Part shown: positions 58,111-61,637 of the stretch, piece after piece | Position numbering within the stretch: the first letter of the stretch is position 1 | Layout of the letters: every line of letters begins with the position of its first letter | NCBI RefSeq assembly: GCF_018449475.1 | Contig: NZ_JAHCQH010000004.1 | Location: 186,001 to 250,000 of the forward strand | From: Ancylobacter radicis | GTDB lineage: Bacteria; Pseudomonadota; Alphaproteobacteria; Rhizobiales; Xanthobacteraceae | Length of the DNA: 64,000 nucleotides | Reading direction: 5' to 3' | Notes under the pieces: generated by a model | The model's database searches: none | What the model was told of the DNA's origin: nothing | The model's input: only the letters and a program-made list of their open reading frames with translations | Translations under genes and position numbers: made by a program

Positions 58111-60762
58111 ATGAGCGGCGTTAACGAGATTCGTTCGACCTTTCTCGACTATTTCGCGAAGCACGGCCACCAGGTGGTCGATTCCTCGCCGCTCGTGCCG
58201 CGCAACGACCCGACCTTGATGTTCACCAATGCCGGCATGGTGCAGTTCAAGAACGTCTTCACCGGCATCGAGAAGCGCCCCTATTCGCGCGCCGTGACCT
58301 CGCAGAAATGCGTGCGCGCCGGCGGCAAGCACAATGATCTCGACAATGTCGGCTACACCGCCCGGCATCACACCTTCTTCGAGATGCTCGGCAATTTCTC
58401 CTTCGGCGACTATTTCAAGGAGAACGCCATCGAGCTGGCGTGGAACCTGATCACCCGCGAGTTCGAGCTGCCGGTCGAGAAGCTGCTGGTCACCGTCTAT
58501 TCCGAGGATGACGAGGCCTTCGCCCTCTGGCGCAAGATCGCCGGCCTGCCCGAATCGAAGATCATCCGCATCCCGACCTCGGACAATTTCTGGCAGATGG
58601 GCGATACGGGCCCCTGCGGTCCCTGCTCGGAGATCTTCTACGATCACGGCGCGCACATCCCCGGCGGCCCGCCCGGCTCGCCCGACCAGGATGGCGACCG
58701 CTTCATCGAGATCTGGAATCTCGTCTTCATGCAGTTCGAGCAGCTGCCGGGCGGCGAGCGGCTGAACCTGCCGCGCCCCTCGATCGACACCGGCATGGGC
58801 CTCGAGCGCGTTTCGGCGGTGCTGCAGGGCACGCATGACAATTACGAGATCGACCTCATGCGCGCGCTGACCGGCGCCGTCGAGGAGATGACCGATGTGC
58901 CGTCCACCGGCCCGCAAAAGGCCAGCCACCGGGTCATTGCCGACCATCTGCGCGCGGCGACCTTCCTGGTCGCCGATGGCGTGCTGCCCTCCAATGAGGG
59001 GCGCGGCTATGTGCTGCGCCGCATCATGCGCCGGGCCATGCGCCACGCGCAGCTGCTCGGCGCCCGCGATCCGCTGATGCACCGCCTGGTGCCGGTGCTG
59101 GTGCGCGAGATGGGCCGCGCTTACCCAGAGATCGTGCGCGCCGAGGCGCTGGTGAGCGAGACGCTGCGGCTGGAAGAGACGCGTTTCCGCAAGACGCTGG
59201 AGCGCGGCCTCTCGATCCTCGAGACCGAGAGCGAGGGCCTCGGCTCGGGCGCCAAATTCTCCGGCGACACCGCCTTCAAGCTCTATGACACTTATGGCTT
59301 CCCGCTCGATCTGACCGAGGACGCGCTGCGCGCGCGCGGCGTCAGCGTCGATGTGGAGAGCTTCAATGCCGCGATGGAACGCCAGCGCGCCGATGCCCGG
59401 GCCTCCTGGGCCGGCTCCGGCGAGGCGGCGACCGACACCATCTGGTTCGGCGTGCGCGACGATGTCGGCGCCACGGAATTCCTCGGCTATGAGACCGAGA
59501 GCGCCGAAGGCGTCGTCACCGCGCTGGTCAGCGAGGGGCGCCGCGTGAAGGAGATCGCCGCCGGCGCGCGCGGCCTCGTCGTGCTCAACCAGACGCCCTT
59601 CTATGCGGAATCGGGCGGTCAGGTCGGCGATACCGGCCGGATGACCGGCGAGGACGGGCTGGTGGTGCGCATTCTCACCACCCAGAAGAAGCTCGGCGAC
59701 ATCTTTGCCCATGAGGTCGAGGTCGAGAGCGGCACGCTGGCGATCGGCGCGGCGCTGGCACTCAGTGTCGATGGCGCGCGCCGTAGCGCGATCCGCGCCA
59801 ATCATTCGGCCACCCATCTGCTGCACGAGGCGCTGCGCCGCGTGCTCGGCGACCATGTCGCGCAGAAGGGCTCGCTGGTGGCGTCCGACCGGCTGCGTTT
59901 CGACTTCAGCCACCCCAAGCCGCTCGACGCGGCGGAACTGCGGGCGGTGGAAGACATCGCCAATACCATCGTGCTGCGCAACGAGCCGGTGGTGACGCGG
60001 CTGATGGCGGTCGACGACGCGATCGAATCCGGCGCCCGCGCGCTGTTCGGCGAGAAATATGGCGATGAGGTCCGCGTGGTCTCGATGGGCACCGATCCCG
60101 GCAATGGCGCGCCCTATTCGGTCGAGCTGTGCGGCGGCACCCATGTGGCGCGCACCGGCGATATCGGCCTCGTCACCGTGCTGGCGGAGAGCGCGGTCGG
60201 CGCCGGCGTGCGCCGCCTTGAGGCCATGACGGCCGATACCGCGCGCCATCATCTGTCCGGCGAGAGCCGCGCCCTGCACGCCGCCGCGGCGGCGCTGAAG
60301 GCGCCGGTCGGCGAGGTCGAGGCGCGCATCGTCCAGCTGGTCGAGGAACGCCGCCGGCTGGAGCGCGAGCTCGGCGAGGCCAAGCGCAAGCTCGCCATGG
60401 GCGGCGGCGAGGCCGGCGAGGACCCGGTGCGCCGCGTCGGCGCGGTCCAGCTGATGGCCCGCCAGGTCAGCGGCATCGACCTGAAGGATCTCAAGAGCCT
60501 GGTCGACGAGGGCAAAAAGCGCATCGGCTCGGGCATCGTCGCCATTGTCGGCGTGACCGAGGACGGGCGCGCGGGCCTCGTGGTCGGCGTCACCGAGGAT
60601 CTCACCGGTAGCTATGACGCGGTCGCGCTGGTCCGGCTCGGGGCCGAGGCGCTGGGCGGCAAGGGCGGCGGCGGCCGGGCCGACATGGCTCAGGCCGGCG
60701 GCCCCGACGGGACGCGGGCCGGCGAGGCGCTCGCCGCCATCGAGGCGGCGCTGGCCGGCTGA
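58111..60762 (+). CDS. alaS: Alanyl-tRNA synthetase
   Basis: An 883-residue class II synthetase. The catalytic core has [36 protein letters not shown] and [14 protein letters not shown]; the editing domain has [13 protein letters not shown] and ELCGGTHVA with zinc-type histidine and cysteine residues; a C-Ala domain follows after a coiled-coil stretch (about residues 735-775). The C-terminus ends with a glycine-rich [15 protein letters not shown] segment. The ATG at 58111 begins [15 protein letters not shown]. The last 109 bp are repeated exactly 484 bp downstream. Confidence 0.97.
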
Positions 60763-61637
60763 GGCTGGCTTCACGCGGCAATGTTGCCCGGATACGTCCC
60801 GGCGGCGAAGGCGAGAGCCTGCGCGCCCGTGGTGGGTGCTCTGTGCTGTCGCGTCTGGGCAGGTGCGCTCCGGTGGGCGCGACGGCTCGGGATGCCGGTC
60901 GCGTGCCCGTTGGCGCGAGGCTCGGGATGTGGCGGCGACGACGGCTTCGCGCCGGCAAGGCGCGAGGCGTTTCGCAAGGTTGGCCGAGGGCGCGTCCCGT
61001 GGGATGCGCCGGTTGCGCGCGCTTCCGGGCGCGACGTCCATAGGTCGGCGTTGCGGCGAACAGGCGTGGCTCTGCCTGGCTGTGTGAATGGCCAGCCTTT
61101 CCGATCCTGTGCCGTGCGGCTCGGGGGAGCCGCCTCCGGCCGGCAAGGGCGGCGGCGGCCGGGCCGACATGGCTCAGGCCGGCGGCCCCGACGGGACGCG
61201 GGCCGGCGAGGCGCTCGCCGCCATCGAGGCGGCGCTGGCCGGCTGAGGCGCGCCTCACGCGGCAGGCCGCCCGGACACGTCGGGGGGCCGCAGGTGACAG
61301 TCTGCGTGCCGGTGTGGTGGGTGCGCTGTGCTGTCGTGTCTATGCAAGTGCGCTCCGGTGGGCGCGAGGGTTCGGGATGCCGGTCGTGCGCCTATTCGCG
61401 CGAGGCTCGGGATGTGGCGGCGACGATGCGGCTTCGGGCCGGCGAGGCCCGGGGCGCTGCGCAAGGTTAGCCGAGAGGCTCCCCGTGGGATGCGCCGGTT
61501 GCGCGCGCTTCCGGGCGCGACGTCCATAGGCCGGCGTTGTGGCGACCAGCCGTGGCTCTGCCCGGCAGGCCCGTCTGCGGGTAGTTGCCTTGCCGATTCT
61601 GTGCCGTGCGGTTCGGGGGAGCCGTCCCCGGCCGGTA
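60657..61637 (+). repeat. Tandem duplication (about 484 bp) of the alaS 3' end and following DNA
   Basis: Copy 1 spans about 60657-61140 and copy 2 about 61141-61637. The first 109 bp of each copy (60657-60765 and 61141-61249), containing the last 106 bp of alaS with its stop, are identical base for base. After that the copies differ at many positions and by small indels yet stay alignable to their ends (both close with GCCGTGCGG and a CGGGGGAGCCG hairpin). A shorter, degenerate third piece follows at about 61671-61740. Confidence 0.9.

Follow-up and report, generated by a model that had tools for sequence, protein, structure and literature searches.

The DNA analyzed here, referred to below as the window, is a stretch of 64,000 nucleotides (positions 186001 to 250000 of contig C20) from a draft assembly that presents the 4.2-Mb source genome in 25 contigs. 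The features mapped around alaS all lie on the forward strand. The alaS gene for alanyl-tRNA synthetase (58066 to 60762) is intact, is listed among the open reading frames at 898 amino acids, matches the Pfam families tRNA-synt_2c, tRNA_SAD, and DHHA1, and ends in a TGA stop codon at 60760 to 60762. Its last 106 bp and the 3 bp that follow form the first copy of a 109-bp block (A, 60657 to 60765), after which comes the first copy of an apparently noncoding spacer without a Pfam or Rfam match (B, 60766 to 61143). The last bases of B, CCGGCCGG, overlap a novel joint (61136 to 61144) at which the end of the spacer is fused to the inside of an alaS end, and this second, displaced copy of the block (A') occupies 61141 to 61249. 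A predicted ORF of 52 amino acids (61088 to 61246) enters A' in frame and encodes the final third of a DHHA1 domain. The second copy of the spacer (B', 61250 to 61635) is followed by a probable third, older, and partial copy of the end of B' (61666 to 61739; spacing, 133 bp) and then by a gene for an ion channel with a cyclic-nucleotide-binding domain (61921 to 63171), which also follows alaS in the same-genus loci examined. Just 3' of the channel gene we noted a minisatellite (63177 to 63332) with about four copies of a 36- to 37-bp unit. Other direct repeats in the window lie at 52185-52235/52309-52359 (51 bp at 94%) and at 16478-16733/17757-18012 (258 bp at 75%). Between 60600 and 62200 the spacer strand is rich in G and T, with an AT skew down to -0.33 and a GC skew of about +0.12 to +0.20 over most of the interval.

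A and A' are identical, with zero mismatches over 109 bp, at a spacing of 484 bp. The first mismatches that bound the identity are found at 60656/61140 upstream and at 60766/61250 downstream, and the identity ends 3 bp past the alaS stop codon. Aligned over their full length, B and B' gave 321 matches, 52 substitutions (13.9%), and 8 gap events; most of the gaps are not multiples of three, and the longest identical run is 49 bp. The most diverged part of the spacer is its first 62 bp after the identical block, with 26% of sites changed (16/61) versus 11.5% (36/312) for the rest (p = 0.0044, with the cut point picked after the alignment had been seen). The initial annotation had reported a mismatch-free 109-bp block, the last 106 bp of alaS plus three bases, in two copies about 484 bp apart, followed by DNA that had diverged by substitutions and small indels, and both statements agree with our coordinates and counts. 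The segment-wise count that it proposed as a check gave 0 substitutions in the block against 13.9% in the spacers, and identity is not equal along the full length of the copies. Cytosine deamination of one copy was considered as a source of the spacer differences and rejected: C/T differences exceed A/G differences (24 versus 6, p = 0.0014) but run both ways (13 C>T and 11 T>C), as in ordinary divergence. Since the C/T changes go in both directions and T is twice as frequent as A on the spacer strand, no one-sided mutational process is needed.

The segments lie head to tail as A-B-A'-B' in one contiguous stretch that includes part of alaS, which is the arrangement of a tandem partial gene duplication. 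The joint, too, is of the kind found in that class, with little or no homology: the end of B (CCGGCCGG) and the alaS motif GGGCGG have only short GC microhomology in common. At the spacer rate of 13.9%, the probability that a 106-bp tail would carry no substitution is 1.2 × 10^-7, and it is 4.7 × 10^-4 at half that rate. A plain duplication followed by independent drift of both units is therefore rejected (P about 10^-7). Because A' would have been free to drift after a duplication and yet is unchanged, either the tails have been homogenized or the two units are not sisters but recently joined alleles that diverged under coding constraint.

Downstream of B', self-BLAST aligned 61533-61603 with 61666-61739 at 72% identity (E = 7 × 10^-7). 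A longer alignment of 61533-61656 with 61666-61789, a stretch picked after it had been seen, scored 84 versus a maximum of 43 in 300 first-order randomizations, while whole B and whole B' against the downstream stretch scored 64 and 70, which is not above the randomized maxima of 80 and 83. The third piece is weak but probably real, judging from these alignments. The initial annotation had taken it, as a degenerate remnant, for a hint of several rounds, and more than one round of duplication, involving the 484-bp unit and an older unit of about 133 bp, is indeed supported.

The distribution of the spacer and of the copied tail was examined in related genomes. We searched 30 genomes of the same genus with positions 60763 to 61920 as the query, scoring 14 candidates per genome. 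The spacer had no second place in the source genome at an E value of 0.001 except for a 38-bp match to the coding end, and each of the other 29 genomes had one strong place (81 bits or more), which was its own alaS end. Weaker matches (up to 56 bits) were short stretches, nearly all of them over the copied coding end, and beyond the coding end and such short stretches the 29 genomes had no spacer match. A copied tail of at least 60 bp within 1.5 kb downstream of alaS was found in none of 27 other same-genus loci, 5 of which had tail matches of 18 to 22 bp that we took as chance; two more genomes of the genus, G017 and G025, are not represented among these loci and were covered by the 30-genome search. 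The same search in 80 further loci, mostly Rhizobiales by title, found no copied tail at an E value of 10^-6; 4 of these loci have fewer than 1500 bp downstream, and one (L033) most likely also comes from a genome of the genus. Thus, the comparison of downstream copy number in relatives that the initial annotation had suggested found no second case in either set. Nor did any of the 27 same-genus loci hold a pair of copies that could be alike within and different between genomes, the pattern of concerted evolution. In the literature searched, we found no paper joining alaS with both tandem duplication and a direct repeat.

The gap between alaS and the estimated start of the channel gene is 23 to 64 bp in 19 of the 27 same-genus loci and 1158 bp in the source genome. 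The closest relatives, G018 and G014, have spacers of 462 and 858 bp, and their channel frames extend upstream in frame by 195 and 140 codons; such upstream extensions (L004, L005) are rich in Ala, Lys, and Ser, and the source channel gene is without one. The source spacer did not align with the spacers of these two relatives beyond the coding end, and their spacers align with each other only in part. By sequence comparison, the duplication is specific to the source lineage among the genomes compared and sits in a fast-changing spacer. Two other loci had features of their own. In G022 (L021, about 1966 to 2941) the gap between alaS and the channel gene is filled by an apparent insertion sequence with a split transposase frame, which we take to resemble the IS5 group. 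In the same-family genome G032 (L032) the last 19 bp of alaS are repeated exactly 38 to 56 bp after the stop, and the stretch after this repeat also has direct repeats of 39 to 40 bp.

The two closest relatives also allowed a calibration of how strongly a gene end is conserved when its spacer diverges. The source alaS tail differs from theirs at 10 and 9 of 106 sites, and over the last 154 codons we counted 27 and 29 synonymous and 11 and 10 nonsynonymous codon changes; conservation of the alaS tail is not unusually strong. Between G018 and G014, we counted 4 differences over the 106 sites of the tail, 10 over the 356 sites just before it, and 33 over the 185 sites (17.8%) of the noncoding alaS spacer that could be aligned, the part directly after the stop being unalignable (local score, 21). 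Scaled to a spacer divergence of 13.9%, the alaS values would give about 2.5 to 3 expected tail differences and a Poisson probability of about 0.05 to 0.08 for none. Among gene ends in 200 kb each of G018 and G014, 29 passed the filters, and the 106-bp tail was unchanged in 1 of them; of the 17 with a spacer divergence of 8 to 20%, 1 had an unchanged tail and 2 had no more than one change (median, 4 differences). These numbers are based on simple gene calls, with some spacers containing uncalled genes and convergent neighbors using one spacer in common, and they leave out an uncounted set of gene ends whose best alignment missed either stop.

We tentatively attribute the tandem copies of the alaS end and of the spacer 3' of it to the joining of two strain alleles that had already diverged. 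Homology on one side, lying either within alaS or ahead of the channel gene, would have let DNA from a related strain pair with the chromosome, and the other side would have been joined through a few bases of GC microhomology, fusing the end of spacer B inside the alaS of the other allele. The old alaS end with its spacer (A'-B') would thereby have been displaced downstream as an orphan. Anchored by homology at one end and joined illegitimately at the other, such an event would be a case of homology-facilitated illegitimate recombination, a process reportedly described by de Vries and Wackernagel in 2002. We infer a separate strain of origin for each copy and a recent event, and either unit may be the newcomer. 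The matching tails would reflect how little the coding end varies from strain to strain, and the differing spacers would reflect their fast evolution.

Observed directly were the structure, the joint, the lineage specificity among the genomes compared, the faster evolution of the spacer (in one sister pair), and the lack of any mobile-element sign. In favor of the joining of alleles, the stop of the identity at the stop codon fits coding constraint between alleles and not a random conversion tract; with tract ends spread uniformly over the 378 bp of the spacer, an end within ±3 bp would have a chance of about 2%, a value computed after the pattern had been seen. Additionally, the peak of divergence in the 62 bp beside the block is the reverse of a conversion gradient, since tracts running from A into B would give the opposite. 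Also on this side are the two-way changes between B and B', the lack of a copied tail of at least 60 bp in all 27 other same-genus loci, and the alaS calibration, in which the ratio of tail to spacer differences is somewhat more favorable than among the gene ends at large. Several observations count against the joining of alleles. A perfect tail is unlikely for alleles as well, as the single case among 17 comparable gene ends of G018 and G014 indicates, and the older third copy suggests that in-place duplication of the spacer occurs as well. The collections searched yielded neither a donor strain nor a homologue of the spacer. No clear step in identity versus G018 or G014 that would mark a donor tract was seen in 42 windows of 1 kb, nor at the boundary between alaS and the channel gene. 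Homology-facilitated illegitimate recombination is also reported to be rare, at 3 × 10^-10 per recipient cell in the E. coli conjugation experiments reported in PMC3240628.

We mildly prefer this joining of diverged alleles over an old tandem duplication made in place, with repeated crossover or gene conversion between A and A' preserving the identity of the 109-bp tail, an explanation that we consider possible, if doubtful. Unequal sister exchange would proceed via the longest perfect stretch, mismatch repair would reject the pairing of B with B', and selection on alaS would hold the sequence. Mismatches hinder recombination, and A is the best substrate available, the next longest identical run being the 49 bp within the spacers. 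The tail is more identical than drift at the spacer rate allows (P = 1.2 × 10^-7, assuming equal rates), which is how gene conversion between paralogues within a genome is recognized, but the joining of alleles leaves the same signal. The older duplication in the same spacer suggests that in-place duplication occurs here, and the 380 kb of the source genome that were scanned contain local direct repeats at 7 separate sites, of which this locus is one. Homogenization, however, would lead one to expect neither an end of the identity at the stop codon nor a peak of divergence in the 62 bp beside it. Crossovers of this kind would also delete the duplication, and its survival to 14% divergence would be unexpected if selection did not maintain it. 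The repeated homogenization by recombination that the initial annotation had proposed thus stays in contention but leaves the stop-codon boundary and the adjacent divergence peak unexplained, and its argument from an identical tail beside diverged flanks had overlooked that joined alleles with fast-evolving spacers can give the same pattern. Outside the window, a 981-amino-acid frame (L157, G000:C20:261169-264114) contains an internal direct repeat of about 1 kb, 89.5% identical at a spacing of 813, with counterparts in G018 and G014 of about 88 to 89% at spacings of 699 and 695. By eye, we take this frame to be built of repeated SH3-like segments, and it is a possible second case of repeat homogenization.

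An assembly artefact, in which a mixed culture or a misassembly joined alleles A-B and A-B' that are adjacent in no cell, is unlikely in our judgment. The source genome is a draft of 25 contigs, and A would be common to both assembly paths, but the joint of B to A' would have to occur in reads, the 109-bp repeat is probably shorter than common read lengths, and the older duplication of about 133 bp in the same spacer is independent of that joint. Unless the assembly is wrong, the locus is a lineage-specific recombination scar.

Selection could in principle have kept A' unchanged as a nucleotide or peptide sequence, acting on the in-frame 52-amino-acid ORF or on an RNA element, which we regard as improbable. 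A' does lie in an open frame with a DHHA1 end, and B (60763-61143) folded better than its own shuffles (z scores of -4.1 and -4.5), an excess not seen in the reverse strand of B, in the G018 spacer, or in three stretches of alaS. Against this, the 10 and 9 differences that separate the same tail from those of the two closest relatives show that its conservation is not that strict, no Rfam match was obtained up to an E value of 1, no promoter-like site was found in 60600 to 62000, B' (61247-61635) folded no better than shuffles (z scores of +1.5 and +1.3), and the changes between B and B' do not avoid the base pairs of B (18 broken versus a random mean of 20). Conserved RNA structure in the spacer was rejected on these last two results, and the strong folding of B may be chance or a 3' untranslated region (UTR) structure in only one allele. 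The folding difference could also be read as a reversible switch of the 3' UTR: a crossover between A and A' deletes one unit, so that B' replaces B behind alaS and the strongly folding spacer (z of -4.1) is swapped for an unstructured one (+1.5), and the identity of A and A' keeps the switch usable. Populations would then contain a mixture of 3' UTRs behind an essential synthetase gene; we give this reading very little credence.

Least probable of all is an element, site-specific or transposing, for which the end of alaS is the target and which rebuilds that end; the initial annotation had offered an element with a fixed target there. A short insert between direct repeats of a gene end does resemble attL/attR, but here the insert is also repeated on the far side, as B', which indicates duplication of a unit and not insertion, and an integrative element would leave the far flank without the insert and be found elsewhere, whereas the spacer has no second place in the source genome (the 38-bp coding-end match excepted) or in the genus and a copied end of at least 60 bp after alaS was found neither in the 27 same-genus loci nor in the set of 80. 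All 15 ORFs of at least 40 amino acids that overlap the spacer were without an integrase, another recombinase, or any other Pfam family at an E value of 0.01 apart from the copied DHHA1 end, and the spacer had no match among phages (E value, 0.01) or in Rfam (E value, 1). One plasmid record, a Shinella replicon, matched 15% of the query at 82%, which we took as the alaS end of that replicon, the record being without annotation there.

Should the joining of two alleles be the right reading, a perfect tail next to a diverged spacer at a gene end would be a scar left by recombination between strains, and a perfect repeat with diverged flanks should not be taken as proof of gene conversion. If instead the tail was homogenized, the 484-bp locus would be a small natural system in which to measure crossover confined to a perfect 109-bp stretch. 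Under either reading, the organism is probably unaffected. The scar is unusual but ordinary in kind.

The closest parallel to the joining of alleles is found in effector/immunity and Rhs loci, for which the account in PMC5361080 attributes displaced ("orphaned") gene 3' ends to homology-facilitated illegitimate recombination, with old 3' regions shifted downstream in effector loci and several orphaned 3' regions strung together in Rhs loci; the process is described there as quite rare. As in the loci covered by that account, the old 3' end and the DNA that follows it lie downstream of a new 3' end, with one homologous anchor and one illegitimate joint. In contrast to them, the gene here encodes a housekeeping synthetase, the piece moved downstream repeats the same coding end instead of bearing a different toxin tip, and nothing points to a selective benefit. 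The predicted joint also corresponds to homology-facilitated illegitimate recombination as treated in PMC3240628, with homology at one end and illegitimate joining at the other, although here we infer the event from one genome and found no donor in the collections searched. That incoming DNA can make tandem duplications is also seen in the part of the pneumococcal transformation work (PMC3784515) that deals with merodiploids; those duplications, of about 100 to 900 kb, start from repeats, whereas the alaS-end unit is 484 bp. Finally, the locus shares with the concerted evolution or gene conversion of bacterial repeats, as far as the accounts consulted go, the presence of identical repeat segments within diverged copies, but differs from it in that the identity ends at the stop codon, with no gradient into the spacer.
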